Source: Anodontia alba (lineage: Eukaryota > Mollusca > Bivalvia > Lucinida > Lucinidae). From it: DNA of 64,000 nucleotides. Both the position numbers and the translations under genes were made by a program. The DNA lies in the NCBI GenBank assembly GCA_964016985.1, contig OZ024828.1:11560610-11624609 (forward strand), read 5' to 3'. The notes under the pieces were generated by a model that did no database searches, was not told the origin of the DNA, and was given only the letters and a program-made list of their open reading frames with translations. Shown piece by piece: positions 23,351-57,742 of the stretch (position 1 is the stretch's first letter; every line of letters begins with the position of its first letter).

Positions 23351-23402
23351 ATTAAATATAGTAATTATTATGAAACATTGTAATAATAAAAAGGAAAAGG
23401 CT

Positions 23403-23545
23403 ATTTACAGTCAACTGTAAATAGCCAAAAAACGTTAAACTGGCTATTTACAGTCAACTGTAGATAGCCAAACAACGTTAAATTGGCTATTTACAGTCAA
23501 CTGTCATTAGCCAAAAAACGTTAAAATGGCTATTTACAGTTATAC
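23403..23545 (+). repeat. Palindrome array GGCTATTTACAGTCAACTGT.., left
   Basis: About three and a half copies of the palindrome GGCTATTTACAG-TCAA-CTGTAAATAGCC, separated by a ~13-bp AAAACGTTAAA spacer (period ~42 bp). The inverse orientation (TTGA centre) occurs at 26040-26297. Confidence 0.9.
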
Positions 23546-26036: not shown

Positions 26037-26039
26037 AAT

Positions 26040-26297
26040 ACAAATATGACTGTAAATAGCCATTTTAACGTTTTTTCGGCTAATGACAGTTGACTGTAAA
26101 TAGCCAATTTAACGTTTATTGACTATTTACAGTTGACTGTAAATAGCCAATCTAACGTGTTTGGTTATTTACTGTCAACTGTAAATAGCCAATTTAACGG
26201 TTTTTCTGTTGTTGTTTTTTTGCTATTTACAGTTGACTGTAAATAGCCAATATAACGTCTTTTGGCTATTTACAGTTGACTATAAATAGCCACTCCG
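26040..26297 (-). repeat. Palindrome array GGCTATTTACAGTTGACTGT.., right
   Basis: About six copies of the palindrome in the opposite orientation to 23403-23545, with AACGTT-containing spacers. The two arrays flank ~2.5 kb. I found no terminal repeat or target duplication outside them. Confidence 0.9.
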
Positions 26298-40268: not shown

Positions 40269-41845
40269 TACTGAAAGGAAAAAGAAACGCAGGGTAGAGT
40301 TTTTTCCTTCTTATTTTAACCATTTTTTACGGTGTTTACTATAGCCATACACTTTTACAGATTGTCCTGTGAATGTGAACCGCGGGTATACGAGTCTTTG
40401 GTCGATGTGCTATCTACCCAGTGTGTGAAATCATTCAACCGTGCACTACACAGTGCATTGCACGGACAATACGGAAAGCCAAAATTTTCGTGCAAAACAA
40501 GCATGTTTAAACCTTCAGCACAAGATTTCCTCACACCATTTGGTACACTTCAACGATACACAACGCTCTTCGATTCTTTTACCGATTTTTCTTTTCATTT
40601 TTACGCTACTTTGAACTTTTTTTCAATCATGGTACGATTGACTGATGTTCAGAGGGGTAGGGCAATTGCGTTGCTGATGCAGAGTCAGAGGCAACAGCAA
40701 GTTGCCAATCATTTTGGGGTTAACGTCTCAACAATTGAACGTCTTGTTAGACGTTTAAGGGAGACAGGGCATTTAACAGACCGACCGCGGTCTGGGCGTC
40801 CACGCGTGACGTCGCAACGTCAAGACAGGACAATCCGTCTGGCACATTTGCGGAATCGTCATCTCACTGCTACCGAAACTGCCCTTAATACAGTAGGTTT
40901 GCATAATCGACAAATTTCTCCGAAGACTATTGGAAGTCGATTGCGTGAGATTGGTCTTCGAGCTCGTCGTCCATACGTTGGTCTGCCTCTGACCCAGGCA
41001 CGTAGGTTGCGTCGTATGGCGTGGTTGACGGCGCATGCGCCCAGGCTATGTCCGATGAGGCAGTGGAGACGAGTTCTTTTTACGGACGAGTCTAGGTTCA
41101 CTCTCTATCGCGCAGATGGTCGACGTCGCGGAGAACGCTTTGCCGACGCCTGTGTTGTCGAACGGGATCGGTTTGGGGGTGGCTCCGTTATGGTCTGGGG
41201 AGGCATTGCTCACGGGATAAAATCACAGTTGATTATTGTTGCGGGCAATATGACCGCAGTAAGGTGTAGGGATGAGATCTTGCGTCCTGTTGCAGTCCCG
41301 CTTGTGCAACAACGTAATCTGATTCTGCAGCAGGACAATGCCCGACCACATGTTGCCCGAGTTTGTCAGGATTTCCTGGCAAACAATAACATCGCACCAC
41401 TAGCATGGCCACCGTACAGTCCAGATTTGACCCCAATAGAGCACATGTGGGATGAGCTGGACAGAAGGGTTAGGAAGCGCCGAAATCCCCCCGCAACTCT
41501 CGCACAACTAAGGAATGCGTTGATCGATGAATGGAATAACATCCCGATGCGAACTGTCAATGCTTTGGTTAACTCTATCCAAAGGAGAATTAGGGCAGCA
41601 ACGGCAGCAAGAGGGGGGCACACCCGATATTGATTTTTAGTTTGATTTTGATTTCAAGATTTGGGAGGTAGCTACCAATGAACTTCAATAACTCGAGACT
41701 TGTTGATCACAAACCAATGAAATTTGGAACTTTTGTTCCATACATGTACCGTTTTGTAATCATAGTAAAATATTTAACAAACTTTTTCAAACTTGAATGA
41801 AATTTAGGAATAAAATTTACCCTGCGTTTCATTTTCCTTTCAGTA
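40269..41845 (+). mobile_element. Complete Tc1/mariner transposon
   Basis: 1577 bp. Left terminal repeat 40269-40296 and right 41818-41845, each 28 bp, beginning TACTGAAAGG and ending AAACGCAGGGTA, differing at one position. TA dinucleotides flank both sides (40267-40268 and 41846-41847), the known Tc1/mariner target duplication. It contains one uninterrupted transposase gene. AATAAA at 41809-41814 just before the right repeat could serve as a polyadenylation signal. Near-identical ends and an intact gene indicate a young insertion. It sits next to a Penelope-associated repeat, which begins within ~30 bp of its right edge. Confidence 0.96.
40629..41633 (+). CDS. Tc1-family DD34E transposase
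   Basis: 334 codons from ATG 40629 to TGA 41631-41633, about the usual length of Tc1 transposases (~340). The frame is open further upstream, but this is the first ATG whose product begins like the family (MVRLTDVQRGRAIALLMQ). Domains: first helix-turn-helix ~5-46 (QQQVANHFGVNVSTIERLVR); basic GRPR-type linker ~52-60; second helix-turn-helix ~65-115; catalytic DDE domain ~145-300. Catalytic residues are D153 (VLFTDESRF), D236 (LQQDNARPH) and E271 (SPDLTPIEHMWDEL), with 34 residues between the last two (DD34E). GGGSVMVWGGI matches the glycine-rich box. It would bind the terminal repeats in the nucleus and cut and paste the element into TA sites. No stop, frameshift or missing catalytic residue is seen. 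Confidence 0.96.
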   Translation: MVRLTDVQRGRAIALLMQSQRQQQVANHFGVNVSTIERLVRRLRETGHLTDRPRSGRPRVTSQRQDRTIRLAHLRNRHLTATETALNTVGLHNRQISPKTIGSRLREIGLRARRPYVGLPLTQARRLRRMAWLTAHAPRLCPMRQWRRVLFTDESRFTLYRADGRRRGERFADACVVERDRFGGGSVMVWGGIAHGIKSQLIIVAGNMTAVRCRDEILRPVAVPLVQQRNLILQQDNARPHVARVCQDFLANNNIAPLAWPPYSPDLTPIEHMWDELDRRVRKRRNPPATLAQLRNALIDEWNNIPMRTVNALVNSIQRRIRAATAARGGHTRY

Positions 41846-45217: not shown

Positions 45218-45226
45218 TCTATAATG
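45218..45226. repeat. 9-bp target-site duplication, left
   Basis: TCTATAATG directly left of the 20-bp terminal repeat. The identical 9 bp lie at 57734-57742. Confidence 0.9.
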
Positions 45227-45246
45227 AGCTGCGTGAAGTTGGCTAA

Positions 45247-47038
45247 CATTCGACATTGGACATTGGACATTTGAATGTCTGGCCTTTAGACATTTGACAG
45301 TCAACATTCGAATGTCTAGCCATTAGACATTCGACATTCGACGCTCGAATGTCAAGCCATTAGACATTCGACATTCGAATGTCTAGCCATTAGAAATTTG
45401 ACATTCGACATTTGAATGTCTAACCATTAGGCATTCGACATTCGAATGTCGATCCATCAGACATTCGACATTGGACATTTGAATGTCTAGCCATTAGATA
45501 TTCGACATTCGACATTCGAAGCCATTAGATATTCGACATTCGACATTCGAATGTCTTGCCATTAGACATTCGACATTAGACATTCGACATTCGAATGTCT
45601 AGCATTAATACATTCGACATTCGAATGTCCAGCCATTAGACATTGGCCATTTGAATGTTGAGCCATTAGACCTTCGACTTTCGACATTCGAATGTCTAGC
45701 CATTAGACATTTGACATTAGATATTCGAATGTCTAGCCATTAGACATTCTAATAACCAAGCATTACACATTCGACATTCGACATTCGAATGTCTAGCAAT
45801 TAGACTTTGGCATTCGACATTCCAATGTCTAGCCATTAGACATTCGACGTTCGAATATCCAGCCATTAGACATTCGATAATCCAATGTCGAGCCATTAAT
45901 CATTCGACATTCGACATTCGAATGTCTAGCTATTTGACATTCGACATTTGAATGTCTAGACATAAGACATTCGACATTTGAATATCCAGCTATTCGACGT
46001 TGGACATTCGAATGTTGAGCCATTGGACATTCGACATTCAACATTCGTATCTCTAGCCATTAGACGTTGGACATTCGACATTTGAATGTCGAGCCATTAG
46101 ACATTCGACATTCGACGTTAAAATGTCTAGCCATTAGACATTCGACATTCGATATTCGAACGTCTTGCCATTAGACATTCGACATTTGACATCCGGATGT
46201 CTTATCATTAGATATTGGTCATTGGACATTCGAATGATTAGCCATTAAGCATTCGACATTCGACAGTCGAATGTCTAGCCATTAGACATTTGACATTCGA
46301 ATGTCTAGCCTTTAGACATTTGACATTTGACATTCGAATGTCGAGCCATTAGACATTCGACATTCGAATGTCTAGCCATTAGACATTCGACATTCGGCAT
46401 TCGAGTATCGAGCCATTAGGCATTCGACATTCAAATGTCTAGCCCTAGACATTCGTAATTCAAATGTCGCGCCATTAGACATTCATATGTCTAGGTACTA
46501 GACATTGGACATTTGACATTAGAGTGTCGAGCTATTGGACATTCGATATTCATTTGTCTAGGCCATAGACATTGGACATTCGACATTCGAATGTTTAGCC
46601 AGTAGACATTTAACAATCGACATTCGTATATCCAGCCATTAGACATCCGACATTCGACATTCAAATGTCTAACCATAAGACATTCGACATTCGAATGTCT
46701 AGCAATTAGATATTGGACATTCGACATTCGAATGTCTAGCCATTAGACATTGGACATTTGAATGTAGAGCCATTAGACCTTCGACATTCGAATGTCTAGC
46801 CTGTAGACTTTCGACAGTCGACATTCGAATGTCGAGCCATCAGACATTCAACGTTCGAATGTCTTGTCACTAGACATTGGACATTCGATATTCGAATGTC
46901 TAGCCATTAGACATTCGATATTCGACATTCGAATGTCGAGCCATTAGACATTCGACATTCGAATGTATTGCAATTAGATACTCGACATTCGACATTCGAA
47001 TGTCTAGCCATTAGACATTCGACATTCGAATGTCTAGC
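45247..47038 (+). repeat. GACATTCGAATGTC palindrome array, left arm
   Basis: Roughly 1.8 kb of ~25-45 bp units, close to CATTCGACATTCGAATGTC-TAGCCATTAGA. Each unit has the self-complementary core ACATTCGAATGT. Small frames such as NVECLMARHSNVECRM are products of the repeat. Confidence 0.95.
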
Positions 47039-47040
47039 AA

Positions 47041-47425
47041 GATAGAGATATCTGTATTTGAAAACTATATCTATATTTCGTTATTAAAAAGAGATGTCTG
47101 AATTTCAATTATAGATATCTGCATTTGAATCACAGATATCTGCACTTAAAAAAAACAGATTTGTGTATTTGAAATAAAGATATCCGTATTTTTTTTTTTT
47201 TTTTTGAAACTTAGATATCTATATTTGAAATACAGATATCTGTATATCAAATACAGATATCTGCATTTCAAATACAGATATATGTATTTAATGTACAAAT
47301 GCAGATATCTGTATTCCAGATACACATATATGCATTTCATTTAGAGATAGCTGTATTCAAAATGCAGATATCTGCACTGAAGTTTAATTACAGAAATCCC
47401 TAATTTAAATACAGATATCTAATGC
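47041..47425. repeat. CAGATATCTG palindrome array, left
   Basis: Diverged units of TACAGATATCTGTATTTGAA / CAGATATCTGCATTT at ~25-35 bp spacing, beginning directly where the ATTCGAAT array stops. A second array of the same unit is at 51665-52110. Confidence 0.9.
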
Positions 47426-47890
47426 GGATATCTCTATTTATGAGCCTGTTTATTTTCAACTTTTATTTTCAACAAATAATCAATACTCTCTTGCTCACAA
47501 CGGACTTTCTTAATGGATTCCGATGTGTTGACTAGAATCCTAAGGACTGTTCCTCAGATTTCTGTCGACCTTGAATGCCACATATCTCAGTACTTACGGT
47601 TAGAACTTAGTAACGCAATTAACAACGTAAAACGATTGCTGGCCAACACCAATTTATCCCAAATTCTTTCCTGTTTAAAGTTAAAGTAGATCTTCTTCAG
47701 AGGGATCTAGTGTTCAGGAAAGCAAACATGAAGTCACAAAAGTTGTATTGTAATAAATTGAAGAAGACACACAGAGATCTCTTACTTTATGGTAACGATA
47801 ACAGAGAAATGAATAAAGTTGGGGCCGTTTAATTTATACATATAATTTAAGTTTGGCCCATTTATTCACCTGATGAGAAAATATGCTATG
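47426..47890. other. Gene-free sequence
   Basis: No recognised gene or repeat. Confidence 0.45.
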
Positions 47891-48016
47891 TTAGTCTTTA
47901 AAGCGCCAGTCGCAACAGCAGAGGACGCTAGTTTACTTATTTATTTTCCTAAATGAAATAAGCTGACAGACGACGTGAATTGCTTGGTCCTGGCGTGCTT
48001 GGCATTTTAAGAGTTA
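47891..48016. mobile_element. Degraded piggyBac-like MITE
   Basis: Begins TTAGTCTTTAAAGCGCCAGT-CGCAAC and ends GGCATTTTAAGAGTTA, matching the ends of the 237-bp MITE. It is about half the length and lacks the hairpin. ACAGACGACGTGA corresponds to the family's ACAGACGACAT. Confidence 0.65.
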
Positions 48017-48102
48017 CCTTATCTGTTTCAATTTTATTTTATTTTTTTTTATATCAGATTTTTAATTGAACGCGACACATAGTTATAACGCCGGTTCAAC
48101 AT

Positions 48103-48240
48103 GATGTTGCTGTGCGGATTTTTAACGCTACCAGGAACCCGAGGCACGTAGAGGCAGCGGCGGTTCAACATATCTATCTATCTATCTATCTATTCATATT
48201 TTTAACGCTACCAGGCAACTGTCATATAGAAGCAGCGCAA
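48103..48240 (-). repeat. Truncated SINE 3' fragments and (TATC)n
   Basis: ATTTTTAACGCTACCAGGAA-CCCGAGGCACG at 48118-48152 and ATTTTTAACGCTACCAGGCA at 48198-48217 match the left part of the SINE at 49549. The first piece is flanked by CGGTTCAACAT (48092-48102 and 48161-48171). (TATC)n lies at 48171-48192. Confidence 0.7.
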
Positions 48241-48479
48241 GATAAATCTGGATTAGTTTTACTGGACTACTGGGTTGGCTTAAAACGGTGCCTAGTTATA
48301 ATTCATAACTAGGTCACCTCGCCCAAACACGGAGTGCATGCACGTCCAGATACCGTGCGTGTGTGTCCAGACCTCGTGCGAGAGTAGAAGTCAAGCCTGT
48401 AAGTTGCAGAATTTTGACGGTCGGCCGAAAAGTTTGAGCTTTTAATCTCGTACCTAATGCGTGTCAATTCCGACTGCGT

Positions 48480-48690
48480 AATGCATTAGGTACTCAGCTC
48501 GAGTCGTGCGAAAGTTTCAGACACTAGCCGAGGAAGGGAGTCGCCGGAGGGGTGTCCTCACCCAGGATGCCGAGAGGGGGACCTCACCCAGAGCACTGAT
48601 AGGGTGTCCTCACCCAAGTTAATGAAAAAAGAAGGGTGTCTTCACCCATGAACCAGAAGGGTGTCCTCACCCCAGTCTCTAGCGTGATGC
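48480..48690. repeat. GGGTGTCCTCACCC short repeats and a small hairpin
   Basis: GGGTG.CCTCACCC occurs five times between 48563 and 48675 at irregular spacing. An 11-bp hairpin GTACCTAATGC / GCATTAGGTAC precedes it. Confidence 0.7.
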
Positions 48691-48704
48691 GACTCTGTAG
48701 AACG

Positions 48705-49472
48705 GATATTTTCCCGATGGGTCACCGCAGGAACGCTCCAGGAAACCGAACCAGGATATGATGTTGGTCTGTCGCTTTCCTGATTCGGCTAGCTCTTCCA
48801 TCTTGTTGTAGTATTCCTCGTGGTAGTACTTGGACGTTGGTCCCTTGATGAGTAGCCAGTCTTTTTTCTAAGGTCGGTGTAAGAAGTATGCTGGAAGATC
48901 GATGTTGAGCTCATCTTCTTCTCTAGGGATTCTTTGCGCCTTGATGATTGAAACGTCCTTTCCATGAAGCTTGTTGCTGAGAGCGTCCTGGAGGTCATAT
49001 TTCTCGTGAATCGGGAACTCTTCTTCAAAGTGGTCGTAGCAGTATTGTATCGGGCGTTCTTTAACTGCTTCTGGAGACTGTCGTCTGGCCTTCTTCGGTG
49101 GTGGAAACTCAGGAGACGCTGGTGCTGGTGCTGAACTGATGATGATTGGTGATGCAGTAATGGTTGCTGTATTCTTGTAGTGTGCTCTGATTATCTGTTG
49201 TGGTGTCTGTTGGAGAGTCTGTGTCGGCGGTGGTAGCGTGGTGGTCGTCTAACAGCTGTTGGCTGGCGAAGCCACTCGCCAGCAGAGGGTGCAGGCTGCC
49301 CCCTGCTTTCAGCTCTCTTCTTGTATACTGGTAGCGTTGGTAGCGTCTTGTGGAAGGTCAGTTCAACGCGAACATCATCCTTCCCGTCATCCATCCTCCG
49401 GAGAGGATGACCAACAAACTTGTACTCACTCAGGGCCCTGAGTAGTACTGCAGGAATAACAAACTCAGACAT
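48705..49472 (-). pseudogene. Uncharacterised ORF remnant, proline-rich middle
   Basis: Starts at ATG 49470-49472 with MSEFVIPAVLLRALSEYKFV, GHPLRRMDDGKDDVRVELTF, HKTLPTLPVYKKR. Coding continues with a frame change near 49230 into LPPPTQTLQQTPQQIIRAHY, APASPEFPPPKKARRQSPEA, IQYCYDHFEEEFPIHEKYDL and DELNIDLPAYFLHRP. A stop precedes KKDWLLIKGPTSKYYHEEYY. The change could be a frameshift or a missing intron. The amino-acid composition and long open frames look protein-like. I do not recognise the family. It lies inside the foldback-like element and may be an element-borne ORF. Confidence 0.5.
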
Positions 49473-49548
49473 AGTTATTCTTTAGTTATCTCTAGACGAT
49501 GTTGACACTTCGGAGGTCCCGAAAGGAAAGAGGGGGAGGTTCAACATG

Positions 49549-49841
49549 TTGTTGTGCTGATTTTTAACGCTACCAGGCACCCGAGGCACACAGAGGCAGC
49601 GGCGATTGCTATGATGTAGATGTATTTGTACAGCCTTGCTTTCATGGATCACCCATGCACACTTGGTGCCGCTGTCTGTCACCAAGCGCCGCCCTGTCCA
49701 CTCTATACTCAACCCAGGGCACGCCGAGTATGAGCTAGGCGTAATAATGGTCTGAAAATTGTCTCGACCCGAGCGGGATTCAAAACCACGATATCCCGCT
49801 TGAAAGTCGAGTGCGCTAACCAGTAGGCCACCAAGCCCACA
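49549..49841 (-). mobile_element. tRNA-derived SINE
   Basis: Right part (49767-49840, minus strand) is a tRNA-like head: GCTTGGTGGCCTACTGGTTA-GCGC holds an A box, GTGGTTTTGAATCCCGC holds a B box. The body runs leftward to TTTTTAACGCTACC. TTCAACATG occurs on both sides (49540-49548 and 49842-49850), consistent with a target duplication. The overlapping 76-codon minus frame is a shadow. Confidence 0.75.
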
Positions 49842-49850
49842 TTCAACATG

Positions 49851-50594
49851 TAAATAATCAGTAGGTTATTGAATTAGATTTCAATTTTTATCGAGTTGTA
49901 GATCTACCTCCTATCAAGTGCTTAAAGACACATTTTTTTCCTTCTTTGGCTAGACCCCCCCTTCATGATCACCCCCAATATACAGTCCTGATAACAGAGC
50001 GTACATCAAAGGCTTATCTTATCTAAGTGATTATGGAGTCATTATAAGGCTGTGAAGTCTCCTTAGGAGGGGCCCTATAAGGGTTAATTCATAAAATTGA
50101 GCAGTATTCAATATGTTACTTTAGAATCAAATAAATTCATTTGCAAAATTTGCATTTAATTTGTTGATTTTATTTGTTGATTTGTATTGTATCACTTTAT
50201 TTTTTATTAATTTATTTTTGATAGTTTTTTTTTCCTGAATACAAAAGTGCTGTTTTTTCTTGCATTGTGAAAAAAGTACAAATGAACTGAAACAGAAATA
50301 TATAATTGAAAATATTTATTTATTTATTTATTTATTTTCTAAAGTAAATAAGAACACTGCACAATTATTCCATTTCCATTTCAGTAAAACAATACATTAT
50401 GGAATATGTCCAAAAGTTCTTTGACAAATTAGAATGTGTATTTTATGCCAAAAAGCCTTCTCTTTTTCAATAAATACATAAATAACTAAATAAAATACTA
50501 TTTATCTTCCTAATTTTCTGTATCTGATCCAAAGAAACAGATAAAGGGTGCATTTGGTGATAAATTAGCATATAGGCTAAATATCTGTACTTTT
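49851..50594. other. Gene-free AT-rich sequence
   Basis: (TATT)n at 50313-50335. No gene recognised. Confidence 0.5.
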
Positions 50595-50680
50595 CCATAA
50601 AATATGTTGTGGGTTTCATTAGAACTGCCTGGGAGAGGCAGTTCTAATGAATAAAAACCAGGCATATTTTATTAAATAAA
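50595..50680. repeat. Core hairpin of the double-hairpin MITE
   Basis: TTGTGGGTTTCATTAGAACT-GCCTGG / AGGCAGTTCTAATGAATAAA, the central palindrome alone, diverged. Confidence 0.6.
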
Positions 50681-51664
50681 CAGAAAAAAAAATCATCAAA
50701 TTATCACCAAATTACCCATTTTATTTGTTTCTCTGTCTTCATCATAAACTTTGCTGATATAAAATCCAATTTCCCCTTATCAGGCCCCTACCTGTAAGGA
50801 TGGCCAAAGTCACCAAGAATTTCTTATCTTAATCTCCTTAGAGTCATTAGGGTGTTATGCAATCCAAAATGTGTCTTTAATGAAAACAGCTAGTTACATT
50901 GTATAATTTATTTAAACGTGTGCCTTTTTATGTAATTTCTTAAATAGTTATTATAATTTTCTCTTTCTGATGTCCAGAATCTAGTACTAAACTTGGAATT
51001 AATTCGCATAACAGAGTTGAGCGTTTGTAATATTATTCTAGTTGTTCCACTTGAAAAGTGTTTGCTTTTATAAAAACAGAAAACGTGCGCCTAGAAAACG
51101 ATATCCAACAAACAATATCGCCGATTTTGTTTATCTCATACAGTGTACTCGCCTTATTAGTTTGACTCTCAGATAGAATGAATGTATATTAAACACGTCG
51201 GTCGTTGTGATTGTGATGTGTGGTGCAGCTAAACTAGTTCGAGCTTTCTTTTTTTCTGTCTTTCTTCCCTGAACGTTTACAATAAATACAGATATGAAAT
51301 GAGCCGGAACACAGCATTTCTTACAAGACTGCATGTACATCCACTTACTCTGATCCGAGTCTTTACATAGTCCTTTTAAAACGACGTCGAGGTGATTATA
51401 TTGTTGCCTGGCACCTCATAATATGACCAACTGATATATAATAAAAAGAATCGAATGCCCTATATAAACAAGAATATAAATCAGGACTTTTACATTCTGC
51501 ATTGTAGAACTGGACTTCGTAGGGTACTCTGTAGGTGGCCAGTGACCCAAAGCGTCTTCAGCTGCACAGCGAAGACTGGTCAGCCTGCGCTTATCCTTTT
51601 ATTCACAAGTAATTATGTAATCCTAGTCGGCCAGCGAGTCATCAGATTTTCATACATGCAGGAA
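50681..51664. other. Gene-free sequence
   Basis: A single AGCGAAGACTGGTCAGCCTG half-hairpin at 51567. Short frames without motifs. Confidence 0.45.
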
Positions 51665-52110
51665 ATAGATATATCTGTATTTCAACATTAAATACAGATA
51701 TCTGTTAATGTAATGCAGATACTTGTATTGAAATGCAGATATCTGTATTTTTAATAATTCAGATATCTGTATTTTTAATAATTCAGATATCTGCATTACA
51801 ATTACAGATATCTGTGTTTAATGTGTAATACAGATATCTGAATTTCACATTTAATTGAGATATCTGTAATTGAAATACAGATATCTGTATTTGAAAAACA
51901 AATATCTCTAATTAGATGTAGATATCTATATTTTAAGCAAAATTAGAGATATATGATTTCAATTACAGATATCTGCAATTTGAGATATAAACATTTCAAA
52001 TACAGATATGTGCATTTCAATTACAGATATCTCTAATTACATAAAAATACAGATATCTGTATTTATCAGTAGATATATCTGTATTTGAATCGCAGATATC
52101 TGCATTAAAT
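51665..52110. repeat. CAGATATCTG palindrome array, right
   Basis: ATACAGATATCTGTATTT and ATTCAGATATCTGCATTAC-type units, diverged, ~25-35 bp spacing. Same unit as 47041-47425. Confidence 0.9.
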
Positions 52111-52380
52111 AGGGTTAAGCCCAAACGGGACGCAATAGGCAGCCATTTTGCGGTGTTTAACTTTCTTTCCTTGCGAAACCAAGGCCGACTGGTACAGTCC
52201 CTATTGTAAACAAATATAAGTCCAGCAGGTACATGACATTTATACAACGTCGGTAAGACGGCATGACTTTTACAACGTCGCATTATTATTGATGCAATGT
52301 CATGACGTTAATTAATGTGACATTTGTATTAACGTCATGTGCCCGCTAGGAAACTAGGCATAGGTATTCATGAAAGATGA
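52111..52380. other. Short GTCGTAACGTC-type inverted motifs, no gene
   Basis: ACATGACATTTATACAACGT and ACAACGTCGCATTATTATTG recur around 52228-52340. Otherwise unrecognised. Confidence 0.4.
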
Positions 52381-52579
52381 CACATGTACGTGGCAAGGAC
52401 TAAGATCAGCTTACACATTCAGTCTTCAGTCTAAGCTTATTCAGTCTTCGCTGTCTGTAAGAAGAAACTTTCGGTCCTTAACTAAGGATAGACTGCAATG
52501 CGGAAACTGTGATCAGACTGCGTGGATGTGCAGACTAGGCTGAGTATTTGCTCGATAAATACCGTTTCTAGCCGGATTT

Positions 52580-52915
52580 GAAACCGGAACTGTTAGAATC
52601 CATCCTTAGTGTCTATGCGGGATAAAGAAATCTCATCCGAGGGGTTAGCATTTCAACTGGGAACCAGAGACGAGGTTTACCGAGACCCTGTTTGAAATAC
52701 CTACCCCGTGGGTGAGATTTCACTATCCTGCATGGACTGGCTCATGATAGATTCTTTTTCTCCAACATTTAAGTGGATTGTTCCTAGGACCAGTGGGCCT
52801 ATGTGAGCTAGAAGATTCTCACATGGGCAAAAAGCCTATCTCATTTAGGCAAAGGTGGGAGAAATTGTGATCTGAAGTCGGGAGCACTAACCACTCTGCC
52901 ACACGGGCGCTTCGC
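52580..52915 (-). mobile_element. tRNA-derived SINE, second family
   Basis: The minus-strand head at ~52915-52855 reads GCGCCCGTGTGGCAGAGTGG-TTAGTGCTCCCGACTTC, a tRNA-like A-box region. The ~260-bp body includes AGGTATTTCAAACAGGGTCT. The B box is weak, so the tRNA origin is probable rather than certain. Confidence 0.55.
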
Positions 52916-53079
52916 GATATCTAATACTTGTTGCAGTCTAATTAGGTTATGTACAGCCAATGATTATCACATACATGAATGGAACTGTCTAGCAAAGAAA
53001 AGCAAATTAAAATTCAGAGACTTGTGTGCAAGCTCTGTAATCTTTGGCTACCTTCTTGGGGGTGGGGGTGGAAATAGTC

Positions 53080-53285
53080 TTGACATTTCATGTGAACATT
53101 TTGCGTGAGAGATATTTCATATGAAATGTCGACTTACATTCTCTGAAAAAAAAAAACTAAAACAAATGTAGCAGATAACAATTTGATGTTTATTTTACTT
53201 TTTGAAAAATGTCATGACATTTCATGTCAATTGTCTGCAATAGGCATGAAATGTCAAGACCTATTTTATCTGAAAAATAAATATA
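53080..53285. repeat. Two GACATTTCATG hairpins
   Basis: TTGACATTTCATGTGAACAT / ATATGAAATGTCGAC at 53080-53132, and ATGACATTTCATGTCAATTG / CATGAAATGTCAAGACC at 53215-53262. Related to 24495-24570. Confidence 0.7.
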
Positions 53286-53289
53286 AAAA

Positions 53290-53370
53290 AGTCAACTACT
53301 AGATTCGAACTCGGTATTATTTGGATGAAAGGCGAGCACACTAACCACTGCACCACAGAGTAACCGTGCG
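53290..53370 (-). repeat. tRNA-like sequence (SINE head or tRNA pseudogene)
   Basis: Minus strand: TCTGTGGTGCAGTGGTTAGT (A box) and GAGTTCGAATCTAG (B box), about 70 bp apart end to end. The acceptor stem does not pair well, and A-rich DNA follows. I do not call a functional tRNA. Confidence 0.6.
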
Positions 53371-53780
53371 CCTTAAAAATATCTATGTGTATCTTTCGAA
53401 TGTGTTGACTTTTAAGTAATTTTCAAAATGTTACGTACCCAATTCAAACTTAAACTCAGGTTTTACACATACTGGAAGGTACAGAAACGTAAACAAATCA
53501 AATGATCGTTCGAATGAATGTTTCGTTTTGTTTCGTTCTGACCCTTATGTGGGTGAAGTGTAACCGATACGACTTTGACAAAAAAAGAACGTTCTGGACA
53601 CAGTTTCAACGTGCAAAATTGATTGTTCTTTCAAGGCATGAAAACAATTTTCATGTTCAATTAAGTGATAGTTATAAGAATTTAGAAATATCGGGTGTAA
53701 AATTACTTTTGGATTTAAGTATAGATAAATAGACATGCCTCAAGGTATCACTGACTGTACTTGACAAAACTGATATACCG
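53371..53780. other. No recognised gene
   Basis: Frames 53502-53732 (+) and 53545-53736 (-) overlap; neither has a motif I know. Confidence 0.4.
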
Positions 53781-55576
53781 TATTCGCCCCTATAATAGCC
53801 CTTGCTCCATGGTCCTTTTTATGCCCCCAATCTCGAAGAAGTTGAAGGGGCATATTGGTTTAATCCTATCCGTCTGTCCGTTACGCTTTCTTGAGGACGC
53901 AATATCTTAAGAATCATTTGAGATATGAAGTTGATATTTGGTATACAGTATCCTGACCATATGAAGATGTGCTGATTAACTTTTTGGCGGAATGCACAAA
54001 TATTGCCAGAGTTATTTCCTTTTTTATGAAAATTTAGTGCCTACTGTATCTTGGAAACCAATTTGTGTAGGACCTTGAAACTTAATATATACGTTCTATA
54101 TAAAAATAAGCAGACCTGTATTTTTTTTTCTGATTGATCCATTAATAACGAAATTAGTTCCCTTTACAACTTCCGTCTGTCCGCTACGCTTTCTTGCGGA
54201 CGCGATATTTTAAGAACCGTTTGAGATATGAAGTTGATATTTGGTATTTAGTATCATGACTATATGAAGATGTGTTGATTAACGTTTGGGCGGAGCGCAC
54301 CAAATATTGCTAGAGTTATTTCCCTTGTTATGAAAAAAATTAAGTGCCTACTGTGTCGTGGAAACCAATTTGTGTTAGACCTTGAAACTTAACATATACT
54401 TTCTATATGAAAAATAAGCAGACCCGGTTTTTTTTTTTTTTTTTTTTTTGGTTTTGTTTTGTTTTTTTTTGTTTTTTTTATTGATCTATTAATAACGAAA
54501 TTATTACCCTTTACAACTTCCGTCTGTCCGTTACTCTTTCTTGTGGACGCGATATCTTAAAAACCATTTGAGATATGAAGTTGATATTTGGTATACAGTA
54601 TCCTTATCATATGAAGATGTGTTGATTAAATTTTGGGCGGAGTACACCAAATATTGCCAGAGTCATTTCCCTTTTTAAGAAAATTAAGTGCCTATTGTAT
54701 CTTGGAAACCAATTTGTGTAAGACCCTAAAACTTAATATATACTTTATATATGAAAAATAAGCAGACCCGTATTTTTTTTTTTTTTTTTTTTTTTTGATC
54801 CATTAATAACGAAATTATTTCCCTTTACATCTTTCGTCTGTCCGTTACGCTTTCTTGCGGACGCGATATCTTAAGAACCATTTAAGATATGAAGTTGATA
54901 TTTAGCTTACAGTATTCTGACCATATGAAGATGTGCTTATTAAGTTTTGGGCCGAGCGCACCAAATATTGCCAGAGTTATTTCTCTTTTTATGAAAATTC
55001 CATTACGCTTTCTTGCGGATATCATAAAAACCGTTTGAGATATGAAACAGATATTTGGTATACAGTATCCTGATCATATGAATATGTGTTGGTTAACTTT
55101 TGGGCGGAATGCACCAAATATTGCCAGAGTTATTTCCCTCTTTTCGTGAAAATTAAGTGCCTACTCTGTCATGGAAACCAATTTGTGTAGGACCTTGAAA
55201 CTTATTATATACTTTATATATGAAAAATAAGCAGACCCGTTTCTTTTTTTTTTTTTTTTTTTTTTTGATCCATTAATAACGAAATTATTTCCCTTTACAA
55301 CTTCCGTCTGTCCGTCTATCTGTCTGTCCGTTACTCTTTCTTGTGGACGCGATATCTTAAGAACCATTTCAGATATGAAGTTGATATTTGGTATACAGTA
55401 TCATGACCATATGAAGATGTGCTGATTAACTTTTGGGCGGAGTGCACCAAATATTGCCAGATTTATTTCCTTTTTTATGAAAATTAAGTGCCTACAGTAT
55501 CTTGGAAACCAATTTGTGTAGGACCCTGAAACTTAATGTATACTTTCTATAGGAAAAATAAGCAGGCCCGTTTTTT

Positions 55577-55617
<41 letters not shown>

Positions 55618-55930
55618 GTTTTTTTTTTTGTTTTTTTTTTGATTGGTCATTTAATAACAAAATTATTTTCTTTTACAACTTGTATAAAATGTTGTGGACA
55701 CAATATCTTAGGAGCTATTTAACGTATAAATTTGATATTTGGTATGCAATACTCTGACCATACGTAGAAGTGCTAATTAACATTTGGGCTGACAGCATCA
55801 TATATTACCAGAGTTATGCTCCTTTTTGTGGCAATTTGACTAAGAATAAGGCCTCGTATATTTTGGACATGGACTTGTTTAGGACCCCGAAACTTTATAT
55901 GCACTTTCTATATGAAAAATAAGCAGACTC

Positions 55931-55964
<34 letters not shown>

Positions 55965-57128
55965 GATTAATCAATTAATAACGAAATTATTTCCCTTTAC
56001 AACTCGTATATAGGGTCTATGATAAAATGTTGCGGACACAATATCTTAGGAGCTATTTAACGTATGAAGTTGATGTTTGGTATGCAGTTACACCCTGACC
56101 ATATGTAGAAGTGCTGATTAATTTATAGGTTGACGGCATCATATATTACCAGAGTTATGCCCTTTTTGTGGCGATTTGACTGTCAACGAGGCCTCGTATA
56201 TCTTGGACTTGGATTTGTTTAGGACCCTGAAACTTTATATGCACTTTCTATATGAAAAATAAGCAGACCTGTATTTTTTTGTTTTTCGATTGATCCACTA
56301 ATATCGAAATTATTTCCCTTTACAGCTTGTATATAGGGGTCAGTGTTGTGGACACAATATCTTAGGAGCTATATAACCTATGAAGTTGATATTTAGTATG
56401 CAGTACCCTGATCATATGTAGAAGTGCTAATTAACTTTTGGACTGACTGCATTGTATATTACCAGAGTTATGGTCCTTGACTCAGTCAAGGAGGCCTCGT
56501 ATATCTTTGACATGGATTTGTTAAGGAAACTGAAACTTTATATGCACTTTCTATATGAAAAATAAGAAGACCCGTACTTTTTTGTTTTTCACTTGATTCA
56601 TTTATAATGAAATTATTTCCTTTTACAACTTGTATATAGGGATCTATGATAAAATGTTATGGGCGCAATATCTTAGGAGCTATTTAACATATGAAATTGA
56701 TATTTGGTATGCAGTACCCTGACCATATGTAGAAGTGCTGATTAACTTTTGGGCTGACTGCATCATATATTATCAGTTATGCCCCTTTTTGTGACAGATG
56801 GACTTAGTCAACAAGGTTTCCTGTATCTTGGACTTGTTTAGAACCCTGAAACTTTATATGCTTTTTCTACCTAAAAAATAAGCAAGTCCATTTTTTGTCA
56901 TTTTACGATTGATCCATTAATAAATTATCCCCTTTACAACTTGCATATAGACCTGGCTATGATAAAATGTTGCGGATGCATTATCGTAAGAACCATTCAA
57001 CATATGAATTTGATATTTGATCCTGACCATATGGAGATATGCCGATTTAGTTTTAGGCAGAGTGCACCAAATGTTGCCAAAATTATGCCCCTTTTTGTGA
57101 AAATTAAATGCCTCCAGTACATTTGAAA
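53781..57128. repeat. ~320-bp satellite with internal poly-T
   Basis: About ten units at ~300-350 bp spacing. Each has CGTCTGTCCGTTACGCTTTC, GCGATATCTTAAGAACCATT, GAGATATGAAGTTGATATTT, GGTATACAGTATC, ACCATATGAAGATGTGCTGA, CCAAATATTGCCAGAGTTAT, CTTGGAAACCAATTTGTGTA, AAAATAAGCAGACCCGT and then a T run of 15-65 bases. Units after 55670 are more diverged. Confidence 0.92.
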
Positions 57129-57134
57129 CTAATG

Positions 57135-57713
57135 GCTAGACTCGACATTCGAATGTCCAATGTCCAATGTCTAGTGCCTAGACATATGAATGTCGAATGT
57201 CGAATGTCGAATGTCTAATGCCTGGACATTTGAATGGGTAATGGCTAGACATTCGAATGTCGAATGTCCACTGTCTAATGGCTAGTCATTCGAATTTTGA
57301 ATGTCGAATGTCTAATGGCTAGACATTTTAATGTCGAATGTCCAATGTCTAATGCCTAGACATTCGAATGTCGAATATCGAATGTCTGATGGCTAGACAT
57401 TCGAATGTCGAATGTCTAATGGCTAGACATTCGAGTGTCGAATGTCTAATGGCTAGATATTTGAATGTCGAATGTCTAATAGCTCGACATTCAACTGTCG
57501 AATGGCTCGACATTCGAATGTCGAATGGCTCGACATTCGAATGTCGAATGTCAAATGTCTAATGGCTTGACATTGGAATGTCGAATGTCGAATGTCTAAT
57601 AGCTAGACATTGGAGTGTCGAATGTCCAATGTCTAATGGCTAGACATTCGAATGTCCAATGTCCAATGTCTAATGACTAGACATTCGAATGTCGAACGTT
57701 CAATGTCCAGTGT
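57135..57713 (-). repeat. GACATTCGAATGTC palindrome array, right arm
   Basis: TAATGGCTAGACATTCGAAT-GTCGAATGTC units, the reverse complement of the left-arm unit. Shorter (~0.58 kb) than the left arm. Confidence 0.95.
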
Positions 57714-57733
57714 TTAGCCAACTTCACGCAGCT

Positions 57734-57742
57734 TCTATAATG
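57734..57742. repeat. 9-bp target-site duplication, right
   Basis: TCTATAATG, identical to 45218-45226, immediately after the terminal repeat. Confidence 0.9.

Follow-up and report, generated by a model that had tools for sequence, protein, structure and literature searches.

The 64,000-bp stretch of Anodontia alba DNA analyzed here (the window) carries a 12.5-kb element that we read as one copy of a non-autonomous foldback-type family of cut-and-paste DNA transposons moved in trans, with a Mutator-like (MULE) transposase as the most likely mobilizer; our confidence in this reading is roughly 85%. Its observed part comprises a conserved 20-bp end, inverted arms built from a polar satellite, and 9-bp target-site duplications specific to each copy. 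Elements of the foldback kind are already known, and this family looks new: A literature search by description named no mollusc foldback family of such kind.

Boundaries and satellite arms of the 12.5-kb element

The element starts with the 20-bp terminal inverted repeat AGCTGCGTGAAGTTGGCTAA at 45227-45246 (forward strand) and ends with an exact inverted copy at 57714-57733 (reverse strand). Directly outside these ends, the 9-bp target-site duplication TCTATAATG stands exactly at 45218-45226 and again at 57734-57742, so that both the exact repeat and the exact duplication claimed in a preliminary description of this DNA are confirmed. At up to 3 mismatches, the window has no match to AGCTGCGTGAAGTTGGCTAA other than the two ends (mean of 0.00 in 100 shuffles), and the chance of a 9-bp match given the local base composition is about 1e-5. 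When the window was scanned for an exact 12-bp (or 20-bp) inverted repeat with an exact outer 9-bp duplication, this was the one place found. Laxer scans gave 49 matches at 10 + 7 bp (inverted repeat + duplication), 1 at 12 + 7, 19 at 12 + 8, and 5 at 10 + 9, and among the printed matches all except the 12.5-kb element fall inside palindromic arrays; only the first three of these settings were run on 20 Markov shuffles, where the means were 0.2, 0, and 0.

Ends and arms together make up 2.4 kb of the element, and an interior of around 10 kb makes up the rest. The left arm (45247..47038, forward strand) is a satellite array of the palindrome GACATTCGAATGTC and the polar spacer TAGCCATTA in forward orientation, and the right arm (57129..57713, reverse strand) holds the same satellite in opposite polarity (TAATGGCTA). 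The arm unit can be written as [TAGCCATTA][GACATTC]n[GAATGTC], with lengths of mostly 37 and 30 bp, some of 23 bp, and one of 44 bp. The mirror orientation that had been proposed for the arms holds without exception for 44/44 scored spacers, the 32 in the left arm being forward and the 12 in the right arm reverse, and the outermost 300 bp of both arms can be aligned with each other from base 1. The arm unit had also been described as a palindrome able to fold; the palindrome is indeed present, but the unit contains the polar spacer and is not a plain 14-mer. Local folding similarly holds energetically but comes without the compensatory-change signal of a selected hairpin, which is therefore unsupported: Covariation over 504 palindromes gave 12 compensated changes versus 15.3 expected.

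A dispersed family with copy-specific target-site duplications

In the 1.86-Gb source assembly, the 20-bp end occurs 38 times exactly (control 0) and 262 times at up to 3 mismatches (22 for the reversed-pattern control). Among 28 paired copies, the flanking duplication matched at 9/9 positions in 10, at 8/9 in 5, at 7/9 in 3, and at 6/9 or fewer in 10; the corresponding numbers for 756 pairings in a crossed control were 0, 1, 4, and 751. A duplication of at least 7/9 was thus found for 18/28 pairs versus 5/756 control pairings. The duplications differ from site to site and are 9 bp long where they are perfect. Many genome copies, each with a duplication of its own, are what the preliminary description had looked for in support of a foldback-type element, and this support is indeed found, together with inverted tandem-repeat arms and variable arm lengths. 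The 28 pairs exclude L037 (1/9), with an end situated within an array, and L020 (2/9), with a candidate partner carrying 5 errors; L027 and L028 represent one duplicated site, and in L015 the left end plus flank is duplicated in tandem.

The 10/28 pairs below 7/9 were counted against our reading. They include C6, which at 13.5 kb is the only other long pair besides the window copy and was rejected as a second large copy with its duplication of 2/9. We similarly counted the 12 of 38 exact ends, including L037 and L020, for which the stretch read shows no clear partner, a pattern that fits truncation. Ends without a partner had been named beforehand as evidence that, if general, would speak against a mobile element of this type. 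The empty site (CCTTCTATAATG joined to TAACTACTTGGG) had no match at up to 3 mismatches in this one assembly, and the 20-mer end had none in viral contigs.

Near-pure palindromic-satellite copies span 199 bp to 5 kb, many of them with a target duplication. All 20 other complete copies are 84% to 99% satellite, versus 26% for the window copy. Spacers could be scored in 17 of these (zero in L014, L017, and L023), and in 16 a forward-then-reverse order fits best, with between 19/23 (L028) and 58/58 (L019) spacers in agreement; L031 is best fitted as all reverse (4/5). Arm length varies between the two ends and between copies: Across 16 copies (5 of the 21 had too few spacers and were omitted), left arms measure 198-3183 bp and right arms 154-2414 bp. 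An arm was most similar to its own partner arm in only 5/16 copies, a ranking confounded by arm length that we also counted against our reading. In the window copy, L013, and L022+L043, the non-satellite middle sits at the polarity switch; it consists of two gaps within 1832-2137 in L013 and of 2.5 kb in L022+L043. A 62-bp gap in L015 lies away from its polarity switch, likewise counted against, and gaps also occur in the incomplete copies L025, L029, L035, and L036. Seven ORFs of the middle of L030 gave no Pfam match.

The interior of the 12.5-kb copy

The interior is repeat-rich, unrelated DNA placed exactly at the switch in arm polarity. An array of a second palindrome (AGATATCT) abuts the left arm at 47042..47439, and a second array of it lies at 51663..52111. 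Between them, the stretch 47440..51662 contains a frame-broken remnant of a repeated protein family (48789..49481, reverse strand), a tRNA-like stretch that is the single Rfam match in the window, and a nested MITE-like element (49926..50876) with the terminal inverted repeat AGACACATTTT and TTAA on both sides (49922-49925 and 50877-50880). The remaining interior (52112..57128) includes, from around 53800, about 10 copies (counted by eye) of a tandem repeat of 311-347 bp.

Ten interior ORFs gave no Pfam match above the cut-off. The repeated ORF family had no PDB match by sequence at E 0.1, and a fold search with a predicted model (pLDDT 62) gave none at E 0.001. Compared with 32 family stretches, the interior yielded only two matches that reach 80 bp (75% and 79%) and is therefore not a conserved part of the family, which is another point counted against our reading. 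The very large size attributed to the element stands insofar as its ends span 12.5 kb, but it is peculiar to the window copy, and the other copies that were read lack this interior.

Origin of the large copy

The 10-kb block may have been taken up as a middle domain or may have been acquired by nested insertion after landing, and we consider uptake slightly more likely. In the latter scenario, to which we give somewhat less than even odds, an ordinary 2.4-kb all-satellite member landed first and the interior came as successive nested insertions, without the full 12.5 kb ever having transposed together. This would suit both the 20 other complete copies with almost no middle and an interior composed mostly of repeats, one of them TTAA-flanked on both sides. 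However, an array of 2.4 kb offers only a narrow target at its polarity switch, and the interior sits precisely there, as do the middles of two other copies. Moreover, neither of the two inner junctions has a duplication separable from the satellite (the only words shared there are part of the palindromic unit), and no clear duplication was found around the AGATATCT arrays. Macro-transposition as described for Drosophila FB elements is a more remote candidate: Two members around 10 kb apart at another locus would each have contributed one outer end and carried along the intervening DNA. It would account for the perfect duplication outside the ends and for an interior that does not resemble the middles seen in the family, but each arm of the window copy is a half-element, with no second 20-bp end in the window at up to 3 mismatches, and both inner halves would have been lost. 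We regard it as improbable. Least credible is an accident in which two unrelated satellite arrays acquired a fortuitous inverted repeat and a 9-bp match. Palindromic repeats are common in the window, and weaker repeat-plus-duplication pairs do occur inside them, but only one pair reaches 12 + 9 bp, and the duplications that differ from copy to copy in the family refute such an origin, which the preliminary description had rightly called very unlikely.

Related elements and candidate mobilizers

Like this family, Drosophila FB and sea urchin TU elements have tandem-repeat arms in inverted orientation and duplications of 8-10 bp. The likeness is one of structure, and we know of no palindromic unit or all-satellite body in either of them. 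Both are named as foldback groups in an account of Tetris, a foldback element of Drosophila virilis, which as described there resembles our family in its end domain, tandem repeats, variable non-coding middle, and 8-10 bp duplications, with no autonomous copy reported and Mutator suggested (PMC4079207). Tetris differs in having a unit of around 220 bp that is not a short palindrome and three structurally complete copies (PMC4079207). The Mutator/foldback element Tm1 of root-knot nematodes, in the passages describing it, shares 9-bp duplications, mostly non-autonomous copies, and inverted repeats of composite build in which a short unit recurs in varying number, unequal at the two ends; this unit is 14 bp long (CGATTCAGTATCGC), with an inverted symmetry that is our reading (PMC3169594). 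According to the same source, an arm of Tm1 holds 1-9 units and its end motifs are asymmetric, whereas here the 20-bp end is exact and symmetric and arms reach around 3 kb; one Tm1 member also carries a Phantom-type MULE transposase, of which we found none in our family (PMC3169594). Among mollusc mobile elements, pearl/CvA/DTC84 and Cg_HINE of bivalves are described as carrying short satellite arrays, some palindromic (PMC5139131, PMC7492417, PMC8268682); unlike them, our family has inverted arms flanked by 9-bp duplications. Helitron-type elements are stated to make no target duplication (PMC7492417), and a Helitron/Helentron satellite carrier was rejected on the 9-bp duplications of the family.

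Mobilization of the family would depend on another element whose transposase, most likely Mutator-like, acts in trans: It would bind the 20-bp end, possibly with the palindromic units serving as additional dyad sites, and insert with a 9-bp stagger. Arms may grow and shrink through slippage or unequal exchange, and the copies of the family would have a pool of satellite units in common. The family has the 9-bp duplication expected of the MULE superfamily, for which this is given as the common size (PMC3169594). The transposase search of the assembly was one for MULE matches (324 candidates, 150 scored) and found at least 150. A comparison of 100 listed of the 262 ends with 149 of the 150 MULE places (one on contig C176 was dropped) gave 1 pair within 10 kb versus 0.16 expected, and the MULE of this pair adjoins a different palindromic array. 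No MULE tied to the 20-bp end was found in this comparison, which we counted against our reading.

Transposases of the hAT and Merlin types also produce duplications of 8-9 bp, and a mobilizer of this duplication size other than a MULE (P/Galileo, hAT, or Merlin type) seems rather unlikely to us. The lack of a MULE linked to the end would be in keeping with it, as would the foldback-like Galileo, which is assigned to the P superfamily (PMC4079207, PMC3169594). Against it, the perfect duplications are 9 bp, and a MULE fragment adjoins another palindromic array in this genome. This transposase fragment lies elsewhere in the assembly, around 340 bp from an array of a different palindrome that also forms inverted arms in the window (23399-23540 and 26049-26291, i.e., 23.4-26.3 kb).

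Implications

Because this second inverted palindromic arm pair exists in the window and its unit lies near a MULE fragment in one case, and because a third palindrome has two arrays inside the 12.5-kb element, palindromic-satellite foldbacks could represent a general MULE design that recurs in this genome. In that case, unrelated MULE lineages would each have grown inverted arms of short dyad repeats serving as multiple transposase sites and seeded dispersed satellites, with the 12.5-kb copy illustrating a cargo capacity of 10 kb; we put this forward as a doubtful, speculative extension. The foldback-type family itself is a clean case of satellite DNA that is at the same time a DNA transposon. 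With it, two questions can be put to the test: Do foldback arms consist of arrayed transposase sites, and do elements of this type give rise to dispersed satellites in genomes where unclassified repeats abound?

Ends, arms, and target duplication of the window element

The element at 45218–57742 of the window is a true foldback transposon. As the preliminary description had claimed, its 20-bp end AGCTGCGTGAAGTTGGCTAA (45227–45246) is inverted exactly at 57714–57733, no other copy turns up across the window when 3 mismatches are allowed, and a 9-bp duplication, TCTATAATG, immediately flanks both ends. The judgment that chance is a very unlikely origin was sound, too: a scan of the whole window found a single exact inverted repeat of 12 bp with an exact 9-bp duplication outside it, which is this element, and a 9-bp match by chance is expected at about 1e-5 from the local base composition. 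Looser settings of the same scan gave 49 (10 + 7 bp), 1 (12 + 7), 19 (12 + 8), and 5 (10 + 9) hits, and those listed all lay within palindromic arrays except the window element; for the three settings at which Markov-shuffled windows (n = 20) were scanned, the mean was 0.2 at 10 + 7, with no hits at 12 + 7 or 12 + 8.

From the outer end inward, both arms (45247–47038 and 57129–57713) are built of the unit [TAGCCATTA][GACATTC]n[GAATGTC], with spacers mostly 37 or 30 bp apart (some 23, and once 44), and their outer 300 bp align with each other from base 1. Read from the spacer motif, the polarity is forward for 32 spacers in the left arm and reverse for 12 in the right one without exception, in agreement with the mirror orientation first described. 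Together, the defined ends, inverted polar arms, and 9-bp duplications show that insertion took place with a 9-bp stagger.

The arm unit can indeed fold locally in energetic terms: as DNA, a single unit is predicted to form a 9-bp hairpin at −8.3 kcal/mol versus a shuffle mean of −0.8. Among 504 palindromes from 21 copies, no excess of compensatory change was found (12 compensated versus 15.3 expected); the two sides vary independently, and there is therefore no sign that the palindrome is maintained for hairpin formation. The data are equally compatible with a dyad site for protein binding or with simple descent. At the center of the palindrome, the CpG is decaying (TG in 53/504, CA in 45/504).

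Inverted palindromic arms occur in the window a second time, at 23399–23540 and 26049–26291. They are made of a 43-bp unit with GGCTATTTACAGTCAACTGTAAATAGCC, in which the polar spacer AAAAAACGTTAAA occurs 3 times on the left and 4 times reversed on the right; no target duplication was found for this pair at 23.4–26.3 kb. Separately, an open frame of 437 aa lies at 40320–41633 (+), which we take to resemble a Tc1/mariner transposase.

A family of copies in the assembly

The window lies at C8:11560610-11624609 of an assembly of 1,862,613,979 bases in 317 contigs, which holds 38 exact copies of the 20-bp end versus 0 for a reversed-pattern control, and 262 versus 22 at up to 3 mismatches. Reading the surroundings of all 38 resolved them into 33 loci, 21 of them with both ends (window included); at the other 12, the stretch read showed no clear partner. 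Apparently solitary ends, which had been named as potential counterevidence, thus occur alongside the two-ended copies. Weak candidate partners at two of the 12 (L037 and L020; duplications of 1/9 and 2/9) were excluded from the pairs.

Together with 7 pairs from the one-mismatch list, the two-ended loci gave 28 pairs, whose duplications matched at 9/9 in 10, 8/9 in 5, 7/9 in 3, 6/9 in 4, and at most 4/9 in 6, one of these last (on contig C2) having the same 8 bases offset by one. When each left flank was crossed with the right flanks of all other copies (756 comparisons), the counts were 0 at 9/9, 1 at 8/9, 4 at 7/9, 12 at 6/9, and 739 at 5/9 or below. The perfect duplications vary in sequence from site to site, and duplications of 8/9 or 9/9 flank copies that differ widely in length (199 bp, 277 bp, 1 kb, 2.8 kb, and 5 kb). 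The expectation of many copies, each with its own duplication, is supported by the 18/28 pairs at 7/9 or better but not by the 10/28 below that level.

Besides the window element, 17 copies could be scored for polarity. A forward-then-reverse order gave the best fit in 16 of them, with agreement ranging between 19/23 spacers (L028) and 58/58 (L019); in L031, the best fit was an all-reverse order (4/5), and three copies with a variant spacer (L014, L017, and L023) gave no polarity score. With defined ends, inverted polar arms, and copy-specific 9-bp duplications across the family, the foldback reading stands.

Arms also seem to change in length. One copy (L015, C1:131.73 Mb) has its left end and flank duplicated in tandem, at 1176 and 1574, and so shows directly that tandem duplication has extended into an arm. 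Two copies 19.5 kb apart with common flanks (L027 and L028, C7:78.33 and 78.35 Mb) look like one insertion site duplicated; their bodies measure 951 versus 2547 bp, and arm length seems to have changed following the segmental duplication.

The interior: cargo or later insertion

The description of a very large foldback element applies to the outer plan of the window copy, at 12.5 kb, but only 26% of this copy is satellite, whereas the 20 other complete copies are 84–99% satellite. In its interior (47040–57128), a third palindrome, AGATATCT, forms two arrays, the first adjoining the left arm (47042–47439) and the second at 51663–52111; the unit itself reads palindromic and thus offers no polarity to score. 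It further includes a tRNA-like stretch, a MITE-like element (49922–50880; TIR AGACACATTTT, TTAA on both sides), a 311–347 bp tandem repeat of about 10 copies (by eye), and, on the minus strand at 48789–49481, what is left, in broken form, of a repeated ~270-aa protein (MPGVLLRALSEY...). At an E-value cutoff of 0.01, the family of this protein has 156 members, with no Pfam domain in 30/30 members scanned and no PDB match.

Compared with 32 family stretches, the interior gave 525 rows, most of them short, and only two of these matches (75% and 79%) reached 80 bp; the middle of L013 has 38 bp in common with it. Two other copies, L022+L043 (C5) and L030 (C10), share one middle that is unlike the window's, in six colinear blocks of 83.5–90.9%, part of it being a dispersed repeat; no right end was recognizable for L022+L043, and seven ORFs of the L030 middle had no Pfam match.

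Whether the interior was carried by the element as cargo or inserted after the element had landed is close to an even call. Carriage is favored by its location at the polarity switch, where the arm spacers turn from forward to reverse, and by the perfect outer duplication. Non-satellite DNA sits at the switch in L013 and L022+L043 as well, and L015 has a 62-bp gap away from it, in a comparison that leaves aside the gaps of four incomplete copies. Later nesting is favored by the absence of the window interior from every other copy read and by its makeup, since repeats account for much of it and one of them is bordered by TTAA. All words that the inner junctions share belong to the satellite unit, and a duplication there is therefore neither visible nor excludable.

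Mobilization and relation to known foldback elements

According to PMC3169594 and PMC4079207, respectively, 9-bp duplications are common among Mutator-like enzymes and most foldbacks are thought to fall in the Mutator-like superfamily. The assembly has at least 150 matches to Mutator-like elements (MULEs), and many of them are 488-aa frames with identical scores (PF10551), which suggests a recently amplified autonomous MULE family. For 100 ends listed of the 262 and 149 MULE places, one end–MULE pair lay within 10 kb versus 0.16 expected. Its MULE fragment, at C1:136179200-136180200 (L061; PF10551, 6.6e-10; ZSWIM1-3 RNaseH-like, 5.3e-15), lies ~340 bp from a GGCTATTTGCAGTCGACTGCAGATAGCC-AAAAAACGTTAAAAT array, which is 80–85% identical to the second inverted arm pair of the window (23395–23542 and 26039–26205) and whose unit was found only there in 331 kb scanned. 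Since the lone close MULE adjoins another palindromic array, the MULE link consists of a single case that concerns that other palindrome. We infer that the AGCTGCGTGAAGTTGGCTAA family would be moved by a transposase acting in trans, and by analogy MULEs may mobilize it.

A literature search found no earlier description of this family. Its structural plan is shared with Tm1, the Mutator/foldback family of root-knot nematodes, and with Tetris of Drosophila virilis, but compared with both, long arrays of short palindromes and almost all-satellite bodies are peculiar to the AGCTGCGTGAAGTTGGCTAA family.
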